Source: an uncultured Saprospiraceae bacterium (lineage in GTDB: Bacteria > Bacteroidota > Bacteroidia > Chitinophagales > Saprospiraceae). Taken from it: a DNA stretch of 64,000 bases. The position numbers and the translations under genes were made by a program. The first letter of the stretch is position 1. Each line of letters begins with the position of its first letter. Below the pieces are notes generated by a model. It had not been told where the DNA came from. It was given only the letters and a program-made list of their open reading frames with translations, and ran no database searches. The stretch covers positions 62,001 through 126,000 of the forward strand of contig CAJQRD010000016.1 in the NCBI GenBank assembly GCA_905480605.1, written 5' to 3'. Of the stretch, positions 1,901 through 63,283 are shown in pieces.

Positions 1901-3265
1901 CTACTCTTGATATTTAATAACTTTTGGGTCTGTAATTAATAGATTGGCGAAACATGCAATTATCAAACTCACTCCAGCCAATAACATCGTGTTGATTATC
2001 GCTTCTCCAAAAAATGTTTTGTACATAAAATTAATACCACCAACTGCTGCAATAATTTGCGGGATAACGATAAACATATTGAATAGCCCCATGTAAATTC
2101 CCATTTTATTAGGATCAATTGTACTAGATAACATTGCATATGGCATTGACAATATACTTGCCCAAGAAATACCAATTAAAGCAAAGCATACATTAAGCAT
2201 CATCGCATCTTTGGTCCATAACATCAATATAAATCCAAGCCCTCCGCAAAGAAGGCTAAACATATGAACCAGTTTTCTATTTATTATAACCTTACGACTA
2301 ATAAAGGTTAAGATCAAAGCAAATGCCATAGAAGTTAAACCATAAGTACCCATTGCTGACCCTACTAAATCTGCAGCATTGTTATATGCCAGATCTGCAG
2401 CCATATAAGCAGCTTCTGGCAAATTATCAGCATTTGGCTTAGGAGCATTAAATACATGTTCTGTCAACGCTGGTGTTGCCATACTCCACATAGTAAAGAA
2501 AGCAAACCAACTGAAAAACTGAACGACACCCAATCTTACCATCGTTTTCGGCATTGAAGCAATATTGCCTAAAATTGTAACCAAGCCCTTTAGCACTCCA
2601 GCAGACTCTTCCTTTTCTTTCAAGAAAGCCTCAATATCTTCAGGTGGATATTCTTTGGTTGTCATTACCGTATAGATTATAGAAACAATAAAAACTATTC
2701 CTCCAATTAAGAAAGCCATTTTTACATTGGCTGGTACAACGTTAGCAGTAGCTTCATTGCTCACTCCCATTTGATTAAGAAACCATGGCAATTGACTGGC
2801 GACCCAAGTTCCAACACCAATAACTAAAGTTTGTACAATAAAACCATAGCTTCTTTGTGACTCAGGCAATACATCAGCAACCAAAGCCCGAAACGGCTCC
2901 ATGGATATATTTATAGAAGCATCTAAAATGAACAAACAACCGACAGCAATCCAAAGGACTGGAGAATGTGGCATATAAATCAATGCCGAAGAGGCAAGTA
3001 TGGCCCCTATTAAAAAATAAGGTTTTCTCCGTCCATACCTTTTACTCCAAGTACGATCACTCATATATCCAATAACAGGTTGTACCAATAATCCTGCTAA
3101 AGGAGCGAAGATCCATAACATTGGAATCTGGTCTTTAGAAGCATCAAGCGTCTGAAATATTCTAGACATAAACCCACCTTGCAAAGCAAAGCCAAATTGA
3201 ATTCCTAAAAATCCAAAACTCATGTTCCAAATATCCAGAAAATTTAATTGCTGCTTCTTTTCCAT
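1901..3265 (-). CDS. MFS sugar transporter, SLC45/GPH-like (probable maltose importer)
   Basis: This is a 454-residue polytopic inner-membrane protein with about twelve hydrophobic segments. After the second helix it carries a motif-A-like loop, GYMSDRTWSKRYGRRKPY (around residues 66-83), typical of the SLC45/sucrose-maltose type of proton symporters. It is the last gene of a minus-strand operon behind GH13 amylase, GH65 maltose phosphorylase and beta-phosphoglucomutase, so import of maltose or short maltodextrins across the inner membrane is the natural assignment. Substrate specificity is inferred from context. The start chosen (MEKKQQLNFLDIWNMSFGF) fits the family N-terminus. Confidence 0.85.
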   Translation of the reverse strand: MEKKQQLNFLDIWNMSFGFLGIQFGFALQGGFMSRIFQTLDASKDQIPMLWIFAPLAGLLVQPVIGYMSDRTWSKRYGRRKPYFLIGAILASSALIYMPHSPVLWIAVGCLFILDASINISMEPFRALVADVLPESQRSYGFIVQTLVIGVGTWVASQLPWFLNQMGVSNEATANVVPANVKMAFLIGGIVFIVSIIYTVMTTKEYPPEDIEAFLKEKEESAGVLKGLVTILGNIASMPKTMVRLGVVQFFSWFAFFTMWSMATPALTEHVFNAPKPNADNLPEAAYMAADLAYNNAADLVGSAMGTYGLTSMAFALILTFISRKVIINRKLVHMFSLLCGGLGFILMLWTKDAMMLNVCFALIGISWASILSMPYAMLSSTIDPNKMGIYMGLFNMFIVIPQIIAAVGGINFMYKTFFGEAIINTMLLAGVSLIIACFANLLITDPKVIKYQE

Positions 3266-58708: not shown

Positions 58709-59761
58709 ATGAGTCAAAAACATACTGAAGTACAGCAATATTATAGTGAATCACTAACATCAACAGAAGATTTACAGACCAATGCTTGCTGTACGATGAG
58801 TCCTCCACCAAAACACATTAGAGATACTATATCAATGATACATGACGAAGTATTGGATAAGTACTATGGTTGTGGACTTACAATTCCATATCAACTTGAA
58901 GGCTTGAAGATTCTTGACTTAGGTTCAGGGAGTGGAAGAGACTGTTTTATCGCATCTAAACTTGTAGGTCAAGATGGTGAAGTTGTTGGAATTGATATGA
59001 CTGATGAGCAATTATCTGTTGCCAACAAATACATAGATTACCACACAGAAAAATTTGGTTATAAGTACGCCAACACCAAATTTATAAAAGGAAATATCGA
59101 AGAATTAGATGCGCTAGATCTTGAAGAGGGAAGCTTCGATCTTATCATTTCAAATTGTGTTATCAATTTGGCAGAAGATAAATTGAAAGTATTAAAAGAT
59201 GCATACCGTTTATTAAAGCCAGGAGGTGAAATGTACTTTAGTGATGTTTATTCAGACCGTAGAATCAGCAAAGAATTGCAGGCTGATCCTGTATTATGGG
59301 GAGAATGCTTGAGTGGTGCTTTGTATTGGAATGATTTTCTTAATGTTGCCAAAAAAGCTGGATTTATAGATCCGCGAAATGTTGAAAGCAAGCCCATAGA
59401 TGTTGGCAATGATGAGTTGTCAGAAAAGTTGGGCTTAATTAATTTCTTCAGTGTTACTTATAGATTATTTAAGTTGGATACCTTAGAAAGTGACTGCGAA
59501 GATTATGGCCAAGCTGTTGTCTACAATGGGACAATCCATGGGCTTAAAGAAGCATACACTTTAGATGATCATCATGTTTTTCCTAAAGGTAAAATGATTA
59601 CTGTTTGTGGCAACACTTACATGATGCTTAACGCTACAAGATTTAAGAAACATTTTAACTTTTATGGAAATTTCGAAACCCACTATGGAATATTTGAAGG
59701 TTGTGGAGGGAAAATGCCTTTTTCAGAAACTGCCAACGGAAATGATATAAAGTGTTGCTAA
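58709..59761 (+). CDS. Arsenite methyltransferase (ArsM-type)
   Basis: The 350-residue protein carries SAM motif I ILDLGSGSGRDCF (68-80), GIDMTDEQLSVA, and the ArsM family segment ISNCVINLAEDKLKVL, PGGEMYFSDVYSDRR and WGECLSGALYWNDF. Cys27/28 (NACC), Cys55, Cys150 and Cys200 are in the positions expected for As(III) binding, and a C-terminal domain of about 110 residues ends KCC. It would methylate arsenite to mono- and dimethyl forms. There is no ars operon here (no arsR, arsB or arsC in sight), so it seems to work as a stand-alone detoxifier. Confidence 0.87.
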   Translation: MSQKHTEVQQYYSESLTSTEDLQTNACCTMSPPPKHIRDTISMIHDEVLDKYYGCGLTIPYQLEGLKILDLGSGSGRDCFIASKLVGQDGEVVGIDMTDEQLSVANKYIDYHTEKFGYKYANTKFIKGNIEELDALDLEEGSFDLIISNCVINLAEDKLKVLKDAYRLLKPGGEMYFSDVYSDRRISKELQADPVLWGECLSGALYWNDFLNVAKKAGFIDPRNVESKPIDVGNDELSEKLGLINFFSVTYRLFKLDTLESDCEDYGQAVVYNGTIHGLKEAYTLDDHHVFPKGKMITVCGNTYMMLNATRFKKHFNFYGNFETHYGIFEGCGGKMPFSETANGNDIKCC

Positions 59762-59918
59762 CCATTAGTAACAATTTTATATTTTAAAACTTATAGATTC
59801 TAAGCATCCTGCATTAAAGATAAGGACAGACCAACTAATCAATTACAATCCATATTCATATTTTATTTATTCTAAAAATGCAATTCTCTGGTTTTCAGTT
59901 GTGCCTTATCATGAACAT

Positions 59919-59947
59919 AAAAAAGCCCATGAAGTGGTTTCATGGGC
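59919..59947 (-). terminator. Minus-strand terminator of the structured RNA
   Basis: Perfect 9-bp arms GCCCATGAA/TTCATGGGC with U6 on the minus strand and no T-run on the plus strand. It therefore ends transcription coming from the noncoding block, not from arsM. Confidence 0.75.
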
Positions 59948-60073
59948 CAGCCCTTAAGTAAACTATCTCTGTCGCTTTAAAACATTCTATCATTAAAGGG
60001 TAAAACAGATCCGCAACCTGTTTGGTGTTTATAAACGCGACATTATCTTAAGTAAAACAAATTAGATAGTTTA
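59919..60073 (-). ncRNA. Candidate structured RNA, rod-shaped and 6S-like
   Basis: The minus-strand transcript can fold into one long rod. An outer 10-bp stem pairs TAAACTATCT (60064-60073) with AGATAGTTTA (59959-59968). After a 21-base one-sided internal loop, a 15-bp stem with two single-base bulges pairs TGTCGC-G-TTTA-T-AAACA with TGTTTTAAAGCGACA (starting at 59970-59984 on the minus strand). An apical hairpin AAACAG/CTGTTT caps it. The terminator at 59919-59947 follows directly. The overall shape and size resemble 6S RNA (Bacteroidota have a 6S-Flavo class); sequence identity was not checked, and another class is possible. Confidence 0.55.
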
Positions 60074-60296
60074 AAATATTCTTTGATTCAGTTGAAATTC
60101 GGGGCGAAATTAATATAAAATTCTAATTTTACTAACTCAAATTAGCTAATATATCTGTTTTACCCTTCTAAAAGTGGGATAGAAACATATTGTTTTTATT
60201 CATAATGCATGTCCTCATTAAAAAAAATTGTTATATATATATTTATGTAATATAAGTAAGTTTGAATTCCATCATCCAAAGAATTAATTAAATTTC

Positions 60297-60327
60297 AACT
60301 ATCGCTGAATAGCTGATAGTTTTTTTT
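60297..60327 (+). terminator. Orphan plus-strand terminator A
   Basis: Arms AACTATCGCT and AGCTGATAGTT (one bulge) with a T8 run. The nearest plus-strand gene ends 536 bases upstream, and the structured RNA is encoded on the other strand. Confidence 0.7.
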
Positions 60328-60414
60328 GGTTAATATTCACCCGTTAAAATAACCGGAATTTAAACCTAGACAGTTTAATAAAGATTTATTAAAGGGTGTT
60401 TATAATCAAGGGCT

Positions 60415-60441
60415 GCAGCCTCTTCTGAGGCTGCTTTTTTT
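60415..60441 (+). terminator. Orphan plus-strand terminator B
   Basis: Perfect GC-rich 8-bp stem GCAGCCTC/GAGGCTGC, four-base loop, T7. It has no coding sequence before it, so it may end a small RNA of about 100 bases starting after terminator A, or act as a barrier to transcription into the FG-GAP gene that ends next to it. Confidence 0.8.
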
Positions 60442-60451
60442 ATGAAGTGCT

Positions 60452-63283
60452 TTATAGTTTACCAAATTTCTTAACTACTATTTTCCCTCCTTCTGTGAAA
60501 CGAAGGAAATATAAACCTTTTGATAGGTGACCTACATATAATACATATAAATTAACATCTGTCAACGCATATTCTCTATTATACAAAACTTCACCAGATA
60601 CATTGATCAGCTCTACCCGATCCCAAGTTTTATCTGAATCCCAATATATATTATGGTTTGTTGGATTTGGATATAGCGTCATATTTGATTCTACAAGGTT
60701 ATAATTTGACACCGTAGTATCAATTACGATATTGTAAGAAATAAAATCAGAAATGCATTCTTCAAAAAATGGTTCTATATCCCAATTAAAAAATTGACTA
60801 AAATCTCCGAGTCCTGATAAGCTAAACTCTAAATCAATATATGCATTAACAGATATTGGAAAAGAAACCTGGCTTCTATCGGCAGAGCTTAGTCTCGGAC
60901 TGTTATGTCCGAAAGACACTTGATTTAATGACTTATCAGTTGTTATTTTATAGTCTCCTTGATCAAGAACTATATCCAAGAACAATTTATTTTGCCCTAA
61001 ATCTAAATCAACAACATGGCGAAAAATGGTGTCATTGTTTGAATTGATAATTAAAAACGTTCTTTCACCTACCTTATCAGTTTCTACCATCAGGGCCTTT
61101 AACCTACATTTACCATTCACTCGAAATCCTAAGCCCCCTACCAATTGGTTGCTAACATAACTTCTTGCAAAGGAATCAATATCTGGAAAACTATTGAAAG
61201 CAACTGCAGTTGGGTAGCTTATTGCTTTGAAATAAAAGAGAGTGTCACTTTCAATACCATGCAATTGTAAATCTCTTTGATCAGACAAAAATAATTGATC
61301 TGAATCATACCACTCAATTAAATCACCTTCAGAAATACTTAAGACAACATCAGAGACTTCGCTTATAGTATCTGCTCGTTGAGAAATACCTAAAGGATAA
61401 TAATCAACAAACAACGGCTCAGAACTTATAGTATCACAATTGTTTGATGTAGATGCGAGATATGTACCTGATTCACTAATTATTATTTCATTAGCGAAAT
61501 CAAAATCTGACCCATCTTTAGTCCAATTCCAATTCTGATGACCAAGGGTTGAACATATAAAATCATCATTTTCACAGAGGCTTAGATCACCATCAAAAGT
61601 CAAAACAGGCTTGATCAATGCTTCAAGAGTATCAATATAAAAAACACTTGAGATACTGGAACATGAAGAAATACCCTCAGCAGAATAATAACCTGGCTGA
61701 TTAATAATTATATCGGCGCCCAATAAACTATCATTGACTACTATCTCTTCAGTTGATAAACTTGAAAGTATTATTTCTTCATTTTTACAATCAATAAAGT
61801 CATTTGATGTTTCCATAATCAATACAGGTTCTATGCATTGACCTTCAAAAATAATGTAGTGTGTATTAACGCTCACACCATAATGTTTATCAATGTTCCC
61901 AGACGGCCAATAGCAGATCAAGGAATCAATAATTTCTGCGTCATTTAAACCGAAATGCAAATTCAACGAATTTGTAATACCATAAGAAACACCTGAGTTA
62001 AGCCATCGGACTTGCTTCATTGCTTTATGGTATATTTCAACTTTTGACCCAATACCATTTGCATTAGATTCAATCCCTTCCAAAGATAAGGTCACTGAGT
62101 TATTTGTTCCTCCAATATTTGCATGTAGTCGATCTGCCAAATCAGATCCAGCCTCTCCATAAACTCCAATCAAGTCCAACCATCCGTCTTCATTTAAATC
62201 ACCAGTAGCCATAGATGTCATATTACCAAATCCAAAAGCATTGGTAAAGGCTTCGAATTGTAGATTACCTTTATTTAACAGAATTTGTGATTTTGTACCT
62301 GCTATACAAATATCAATCAACCCATCATTGTTGTAATCAGCAAGAGTAACTTGTAAGTCCTCTGATATTATCATTCCGTTGGAAGAAAACACATCATGAG
62401 TTAGAAAACTATCTTGCCCATTATTTTCTAAAATCATCGAAGGTGCGCCATGATTAATAATAACCAAGTCTATATCACCATCATTATCAAGGTCGCCTGA
62501 ATCTGCACACCAAGTTTGCTCTCCATGAGCCAATCCAAATTCTTTAGCTTTCTCGATATATTCTCCATCTTCGTTTATAAACAATTGATTAATTCGTCTC
62601 AAATCCGTTACAGTTGTCGCTGTAACAAAACACTTAGATATAAAAAGATCCAAATCATTGTCTTGATCTGCATCGAACCAGATACTGTTGTAATTCCCCT
62701 TAGACTCCTCTTCCGTATTTAATTTAAAATCAATAATATCTTCATCAAGTATAAGTTGACCTTGTCCATCATTTACAAATGCTTGATTAAATCCAATATC
62801 ATTCGTAACCAGCACATCTAGTTTACCATCTAGATTGATATCATTTATACTTGAGCCTTGAGCATAATAAGAACCCGATGATTCTTGAATAATTCTATAA
62901 TTTTCAAAACCAGTGTCCATCTCTATTGACACGAAACCTTTTTTAAATCCTGATATGAAAATATCATTCGCACCTAGGGCATTGATGTTACCAACATTGA
63001 TCGTTGTCACATCAAAAGGCAATGCAAATCGGTATTGTTCTTTAATTAATCTTCCTTGGTTTAATTGAGCATGAACTATCAATTCCAATTCAGATATACG
63101 GATCAAGTCATCGCGATAGTCATTATTGACATCCGCGACAGCAACTGCAATCCCTGAAGAAAGGTTATTTTCAATAAGATGAGATTCATTTGTAAAAAAT
63201 ACTGGTGTTTGAGCGACAGATGCTAAACAAAACCCATTTGTGAGTAAAATCAATATTAAACTTAAACGATCTTTCAATTCCAT
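60452..63283 (-). CDS. Secreted FG-GAP/VCBS and ASPIC-UnbV protein with T9SS domain
   Basis: This 943-residue protein has a signal peptide (LSLILILLTNGFCLASVAQ); several FG-GAP/VCBS calcium-binding repeats in a propeller (DINLDGKLDVLV, DADQDNDLDLFI, DLDNDGDIDLVI, DYNNDGLIDICI, DLNEDGWLDLIG); an ASPIC/UnbV domain (SNANGIGSKVEIYHKAMKQV and LHFGLNDAEIIDSL); Ig/PKD-like domains; and a T9SS type A sorting domain (MTLYPNPTNHNIYWD). It is an exported, calcium-binding surface protein; ligands are unknown, but ASPIC/UnbV proteins often bind glycans or cell partners. It stands alone. Confidence 0.9.
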   Translation of the reverse strand: MELKDRLSLILILLTNGFCLASVAQTPVFFTNESHLIENNLSSGIAVAVADVNNDYRDDLIRISELELIVHAQLNQGRLIKEQYRFALPFDVTTINVGNINALGANDIFISGFKKGFVSIEMDTGFENYRIIQESSGSYYAQGSSINDINLDGKLDVLVTNDIGFNQAFVNDGQGQLILDEDIIDFKLNTEEESKGNYNSIWFDADQDNDLDLFISKCFVTATTVTDLRRINQLFINEDGEYIEKAKEFGLAHGEQTWCADSGDLDNDGDIDLVIINHGAPSMILENNGQDSFLTHDVFSSNGMIISEDLQVTLADYNNDGLIDICIAGTKSQILLNKGNLQFEAFTNAFGFGNMTSMATGDLNEDGWLDLIGVYGEAGSDLADRLHANIGGTNNSVTLSLEGIESNANGIGSKVEIYHKAMKQVRWLNSGVSYGITNSLNLHFGLNDAEIIDSLICYWPSGNIDKHYGVSVNTHYIIFEGQCIEPVLIMETSNDFIDCKNEEIILSSLSTEEIVVNDSLLGADIIINQPGYYSAEGISSCSSISSVFYIDTLEALIKPVLTFDGDLSLCENDDFICSTLGHQNWNWTKDGSDFDFANEIIISESGTYLASTSNNCDTISSEPLFVDYYPLGISQRADTISEVSDVVLSISEGDLIEWYDSDQLFLSDQRDLQLHGIESDTLFYFKAISYPTAVAFNSFPDIDSFARSYVSNQLVGGLGFRVNGKCRLKALMVETDKVGERTFLIINSNNDTIFRHVVDLDLGQNKLFLDIVLDQGDYKITTDKSLNQVSFGHNSPRLSSADRSQVSFPISVNAYIDLEFSLSGLGDFSQFFNWDIEPFFEECISDFISYNIVIDTTVSNYNLVESNMTLYPNPTNHNIYWDSDKTWDRVELINVSGEVLYNREYALTDVNLYVLYVGHLSKGLYFLRFTEGGKIVVKKFGKL

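Follow-up and report, generated by a model that had tools for sequence, protein, structure and literature searches.

The window analyzed here is a 64,000-nucleotide stretch of an uncultured Saprospiraceae genome (contig CAJQRD010000016.1; genome G000 in the comparisons below). Two convergent genes in this window are separated by a spacer of 690 bases, 59762–60451. The initial annotation described these bases as gene-free, and this is borne out by the list of open reading frames, in which the spacer holds none of at least 60 aa. Rfam returns no match inside the spacer at gathering thresholds; when the search is extended to E 10 across 59500–60700, eight matches appear, all far under their own cut-offs, and 6S RNA is not among them. 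The flanking genes are as follows:

58709–59761, plus strand: SAM methyltransferase gene, left flank (Pfam Methyltransf_31; given as a putative arsM in the initial annotation)
60452–63283, minus strand: FG-GAP/ASPIC-UnbV gene, right flank, its product with a secretion-tail domain

Matches to the FG-GAP/ASPIC-UnbV protein are found in 13 of the 14 genus genomes, at two per genome, some of these being fragments of a single gene. The gene that follows it downstream appears, in several loci and judged by eye, to encode a putative peptidase-like lipoprotein.

Predicted fold and terminator of RNA A

Three minus-strand stems and a terminator hairpin had been proposed for the spacer, and all of them can be located in the predicted fold of 59762–60451. 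The corresponding RNA, referred to here as RNA A, comprises the following parts, several of which are defined by comparison with a same-genus genome, G006:

60064–60072 with 59960–59968, minus strand: outer stem P1 (AAACUAUCU/AGAUAGUUU), present in the fold; its conservation is unsupported
60026–60042 (5′ arm) and 59970–59984 (3′ arm), minus strand: bulged middle stem P2/P3 (UGUCGC-UUUA-AAACA), from the fold and from three two-sided pair changes, with no pair broken
60004–60022, minus strand: hairpin P4, its loop UUGCGGA the same in the window and G006, one stem pair changing from G-U to G-C
59986–60003, minus strand: 18-nt strand UUACCCUUUAAUGAUAGA beside P4, identical in the window and G006 and mostly unpaired in the folds; a proposed pairing surface
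59947–60049, minus strand: core of RNA A (model R1), from comparison with G006 (82% identity across 129 aligned columns)
59924–59948, minus strand: RNA A terminator, a 10-pair stem followed by a T run to 59919

Terminator-like sites are in excess in this region: two are seen in 59700–60500, against 0.3 expected from shuffles. RNA A ends in such an intrinsic terminator, as an autonomous small RNA would, and the terminator has a counterpart in G006 (L024 2679–2658, minus strand) with a partly different stem.

The whole 690 nt fold with an energy z of −5.6 (20 shuffles), and the 158 nt of stems plus terminator with a z of −3.9, none of 300 shuffles being as good. Without the terminator, the 124 nt of stems give a z of −1.6, a value reached by 7.3% of shuffles; read from the plus strand, this piece behaves about the same (z −1.5, 7.7%). 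The G006 copy has z values of −3.2 with its terminator, −2.0 (3.7%) without it, and −1.8 (4.7%) on the other strand. The improbability claimed for such nesting is therefore mostly the terminator's, the fold that remains without it in the window being ordinary. Folding energy by itself does not establish a rod, and comparison with a relative is the better support.

An inverted counterpart in the same genus

A DNA search of 40 relatives gave a single strong match, in G006 (E 8e-26); 37 of the 40 genomes were counted at E up to 1, and beyond G000 and G006 the best match (E 0.0015) extends across about 40 bases. A scan of public sequences indicates that the G006 contig is JABDKX010000083.1, from a Saprospiraceae MAG. 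The copy sits between the same two genes as in the window, and the core of RNA A is more similar between the two genomes than the neighboring methyltransferase gene is (82% versus 73% identity). Two further features are defined by these comparisons:

59912–60440, no strand assigned: inverted block, whose orientation in G006 is reversed relative to both flanking genes
60207–60214, minus strand: motif GGACATGC, also at L024 2923–2930 (G006) and L048 4415–4422 (G009), between RNA A and a putative RNA B described below, upstream of the candidate RNA B promoter

The inversion is visible in the alignment with G006. The methyltransferase gene aligns reversed (window 58709–59722 with L024 4330–3317) and the ends of the block align forward (59912–60034 with 2645–2768; 60383–60440 with 3130–3191), a middle piece agreeing in orientation with the ends. 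Identity along the block is 80% at 59945–59981, 93% at 59982–60020, 68% at 60221–60260, 78% at 60391–60426, and 25–53% in the remaining pieces; this alignment is visibly off near 60021–60050, where a separate core alignment places the letters better.

In a third genome, G009, the right-hand end of the block (the RNA B terminator region and the GGACATGC motif) adjoins the FG-GAP gene of that genome. RNA A was not found in G009 by comparison or by searches with model R1, and the methyltransferase homolog is on that contig too, at a distance of more than 130 kb. Because this right-hand end is oriented as in the window, the window orientation of the block is probably the older one. The G006 orientation may also be a product of assembly, one of two orientations in the population having been chosen, since the block there lies on a 6.3-kb contig.

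The GGACATGC motif is common to the three genomes, in surroundings that have otherwise diverged, and may be a regulator's site. An extra hairpin lies between the two RNAs, perfect in G006 (ATCCCCC/GGGGGAT, L024 2880–2897) and with an imperfect CCC...GGG counterpart in the window (60163–60178). G009 carries an inverted repeat, GGCATTTGCATGTAAATGCC (L048 4543–4562), about 70 bases upstream of the gene that follows its B element.

Paired changes in the middle stem

In a hand-placed core alignment of the window and G006, 41 of 41 counted cells are paired (three cells with N being left out of the count) and three changes are two-sided. Infernal's own alignment has 40 of 41 cells paired, the outermost pair of P4 being the one not kept, and likewise three two-sided changes, partly at other pairs; only pairs 10-84 and 17-78 are two-sided in both alignments, and the others depend partly on gap placement. 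When partners are slid by 1–3 columns, 0 or 1 two-sided changes remain and 28–61% of cells are paired. A letter-shuffle control equals the score in 69 of 500 (hand-placed) and 54 of 500 (Infernal) trials, the alignment having two rows only.

Within each genome, the two arms of the middle stem pair at −9.3 and −11.4 kcal/mol; when arms are swapped between genomes, the energies are −5.0 and −2.0. With both arms shuffled, 0.6% and 0.1% are as good as the real ones. For the outer 10-bp stem P1, shuffled 5′ arms are as good in 6.6% (window) and 18.6% (G006), which is not above chance, and the positions of its 5′ arms are not homologous between the two genomes; P1 is ruled out as a conserved element on both counts. 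The covariation by which the fold was to be judged is found, then, in the middle stem but not in the outer one, and between two sequences only.

A putative second RNA and its complementarity to RNA A

The terminators at both ends of the block point outwards, in the window as in G006. This suggests either two divergent small RNAs, RNA A on the minus strand and RNA B on the plus strand, or long overlapping 3′ ends of the convergent genes. Two divergent transcripts are favored, because the parts of the block persist through the inversion and RNA A then goes with neither gene. The features of the putative RNA B and the candidate promoters are as follows:

60415–60434, plus strand: RNA B terminator stem, with a T run to 60441; counterparts in G006 and, by alignment, in G009
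60383–60406, plus strand: conserved 24-nt segment of RNA B, without a difference between the window and G006
60257–60264, plus strand: candidate −7 element of RNA B, TAAGTTTG, where the surrounding sequence is partly shared with G006 (which has TAAGTTTA); no good −33 element
60105–60135, minus strand: candidate Bacteroidetes-type promoter of RNA A (TTAG, 19 nt, TAATTTCG); similarly placed in G006 (TTTG, 19 nt, TACTTTCG)

The candidate sites are judged against the Bacteroidetes promoter consensus. Sites of this type are not clearly above chance, with 14 in the window block versus 8.3 in shuffles and 4 versus 7.3 in G006; sigma-70-type sites show no excess in either (5 versus 4.7 and 0 versus 4.5, respectively).

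An 18-nt segment of RNA B, AUUAAAGGGUGUUUAUAA (60388–60405), is complementary to RNA A at 59992–60001 and 60024–60034, on the two sides of the RNA A hairpin. This split complementarity amounts to 11+10 nt in the window and 12+10 nt in G006, the two runs abutting on RNA B. Two abutting runs of at least 9 nt occur in 5 of 1500 Markov-simulated pairs, the thresholds having been chosen after the case was seen; a lone stretch of 11 complementary nucleotides is no rarity in such AT-rich sequence, where the longest run in 200 shuffles reaches up to 13. Co-folding of the two RNAs brings a small gain in the window (−3.3 kcal/mol) and a moderate one in G006 (−11.3), with minimum-energy structures that are not made of the proposed duplex. 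On DNA, the complementarity is equivalent to a direct repeat with one copy split by the hairpin, and it may have another cause.

Other roles for RNA A were considered and rejected. The complement of the invariant strand UUACCCUUUAAUGAUAGA is not enriched in either genome, with 13 matches in G000 (the block included) versus 12 in the control and 5 versus 12 in G006; mRNAs as its targets are unsupported, there being no excess over the control. A protein-coding RNA A is contradicted by gaps of 2 and 1 nt in the core alignment, which break any shared reading frame, and a 72-aa ATG frame that crosses RNA A in G006 has no counterpart in the window (ATG frames of at least 18 aa).

Distribution of RNA A and of the B end

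Model R1, on which the window and G006 sequences score high by construction, recovers only G000 and G006 among 398 family genomes at E up to 0.01; such large runs use stricter filters that lose weak matches. Seven of 120 relatives match at E up to 1, two convincingly (G000 and G006) and five weakly, and the best three of the weak matches (L105–L107) fall within long open frames. Within the genus, RNA A is found in 2 of 14 genomes, several of which are incomplete (53–98%). It may therefore be narrow in distribution, or fast-evolving, or missed.

A pattern search locates one copy of the block in G000 and one in G006, the other G000 matches being short and weak. Of the four stretches returned by the public scan for RNA A, one is the G006 contig; the other three, from an uncultured Saprospiraceae MAG, a Cocleimonas MAG, and a Bacillus, have no further similarity to the block. 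Three viral contigs match the RNA A pattern through one shared G+C-rich sequence, with no further similarity, and are unconvincing. Viral contigs hold no match to the RNA B pattern, and no match was seen in phages. A single 41-base match on a Morganella plasmid, where no gene is annotated, is taken as chance in AT-rich DNA.

The B end is distributed somewhat differently. Among the 14 genus genomes, it is found in G009 (E 1e-6) besides G000 and G006, all others being at E 0.002 or weaker; in a sample of 396 order genomes that does not contain G006, three match (G000, G009, and G353, the last with 3 mismatches).

Comparison with 6S RNA

RNAs of the 6S family are independent small RNAs of about 150–190 nt with a long-range stem, and are defined by a conserved closing stem and a large central bubble that mimics an open promoter. 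RNA A is like 6S and 6S-Flavo RNA in size, in its long-range stem, and as a putative independent small RNA. It differs from them in having no model match, a very narrow distribution, and an outer stem that is not conserved; its unpaired region lies on the 3′ strand only, in place of a symmetric central bubble. By the fold and the shuffled-arm test, RNA A has neither the closing stem nor the central bubble of the family, and it lacks broad conservation in the lineage, being convincing in 2 of 120 relatives and 2 of 398 family genomes. Its presence in few genus genomes speaks against 6S RNA, which should be widespread.

Direct searches agree. The Rfam 6S and 6S-Flavo models have no match in the region up to E 10. 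Across 40 genomes (the window's and 39 others of its order), RF00013 (6S RNA) matches none at E up to 1 and RF01685 (6S-Flavo) none over its cut-off; sub-threshold RF01685 matches occur in three of the 40 relatives (best E 0.16), and the window's genome is not among these. In 14 control genomes, RF00013 exceeds its cut-off in four and RF01685 in none, so that the sensitivity of the latter model is unproven here. The 6S identity suggested by the initial annotation was not upheld by these searches, by the narrow distribution, or by an outer stem neither above chance nor homologous in position. Since neither model exceeds its cut-off in the 40 genomes, the lineage's 6S RNA is unaccounted for: it either does not exist or has diverged beyond what the Rfam models can detect. 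A passage in Weinberg and colleagues (PMC2864571) lists 6S-Flavo (RF01685) for Bacteroidetes, and another notes that extensively diverged RNAs often escape homology searches.

Discussion

The conserved core and the two-sided pair changes, seen in one relative, support the proposal of an RNA not previously annotated here that carries its own terminator; on this sequence evidence, RNA A is likely to be a real structured RNA, so far unnamed. It would run on the minus strand from roughly 60100 to 59920, about 150–190 nt, and would end in its own terminator, with a core made of the bulged stem, the hairpin with the UUGCGGA loop, and the invariant strand UUACCCUUUAAUGAUAGA. There is a reasonable probability that RNA A forms its own transcription unit, read from a promoter of its own within the block; the parts of the block stay together whichever way it faces its neighbors, and this argues for such independent transcription. 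RNA B would probably be made divergently from the same block, on the plus strand from roughly 60265 to 60440. The core of RNA A would then display UUACCCUUUAAUGAUAGA and the stretch around AACACC, and these together could pair with the 18-nt conserved segment of RNA B. RNA A would most likely be a base-pairing regulator, though both the pairing in the cell and a regulatory outcome are what we infer; that pairing with RNA B is its function is a tentative suggestion. Taken as a whole, an autonomous, narrowly distributed small RNA that acts through base pairing stands at about even chances, and it has against it that RNA A is carried by two sequences only and that G009 has the B end without RNA A. 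A more elaborate form, rather improbable, is a self-contained, flippable two-RNA module in which RNA A, holding the complement of RNA B in two parts around its conserved hairpin, would form a three-way RNA junction with RNA B, own promoters and insulating terminators allowing it to work in either orientation.

It is also possible, at perhaps the weight of a serious minority view, that both terminators merely end the convergent genes, with the FG-GAP mRNA extending leftward to 59924, the methyltransferase mRNA extending rightward to 60441, and the fold being an element of the overlapping 3′ UTRs or an RNA derived from them. Each terminator is directed to end the far gene, in the G006 inversion as well; 59700–60500 holds no further terminator-like site, and the candidate promoters within the block are weak. 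However, the core is better conserved than the neighboring gene and has paired changes, and in G006 RNA A would fall to the mRNA of the other gene, and so is tied to neither. The inversion of the entire block between two relatives, its similar inverted ends (ATAAAAAA, hairpin, CAGCCCTT), its narrow distribution, and the minus-strand direct repeat TTATAAACACC...CCCTTTAAT would suit a site-specific or mobile DNA element, in which the terminal hairpins and the repeat serve as recombinase or transposase sites and the folding acts in DNA. Such an element is unlikely, given that neither of the two flanking genes checked is a recombinase or transposase and that G000 and G006 each hold a single copy, where a mobile element would be expected in several; it has no match in phages, no convincing one in viral contigs, and one of 41 bases among plasmids, and the T runs that follow both hairpins are in keeping with transcription.

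A chance fold, in a spacer conserved for some other cause, would accord with the ordinary energy of the stems without the terminator and with the small number of sequences, two being few for a claim of covariation; the conservation in G006 and the paired changes speak against it, and we consider it decidedly unlikely. Least credible is a divergent 6S RNA. The length, rod-like fold, and own terminator of RNA A would fit, as would a lineage whose 6S RNA is unaccounted for in 40 genomes, but the absence of an Rfam 6S match, the restriction to 2 of 14 genus and 2 of 398 family genomes, the unconserved outer stem, and the asymmetric open 3′ strand in place of a symmetric central bubble make this identity very improbable.

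The block invites comparison with two kinds of known system. Bacteria are known to have small RNA pairs that are divergent or cis-encoded antisense, and the block is like them in its two putative terminator-ended RNAs, its single short noncoding segment, and the mutual complementarity. Here, however, the complementarity comes from a split repeat and not from overlapping transcription, a hairpin separates its halves in one partner, and no small ORF is common to the genomes (ATG frames of at least 18 aa). A literature search on divergent antisense pairs in Bacteroides found no paper. Invertible DNA segments (invertons) are also known, and the block shares with them similar inverted hairpins at its flanks and the occurrence of opposite orientations. 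In this case, though, the orientations come from two species and not from one population, the flanking genes are not invertases, and a promoter aimed at a flanking gene is not among the findings.

For small RNAs of Saprospiria, a narrow literature search likewise found no paper. A structured RNA of such narrow distribution, possibly accompanied by a partner RNA and inverted in a relative, offers a testable starting point in this group, and the 6S RNA of the order is left unaccounted for by both Rfam models across the 40 genomes.
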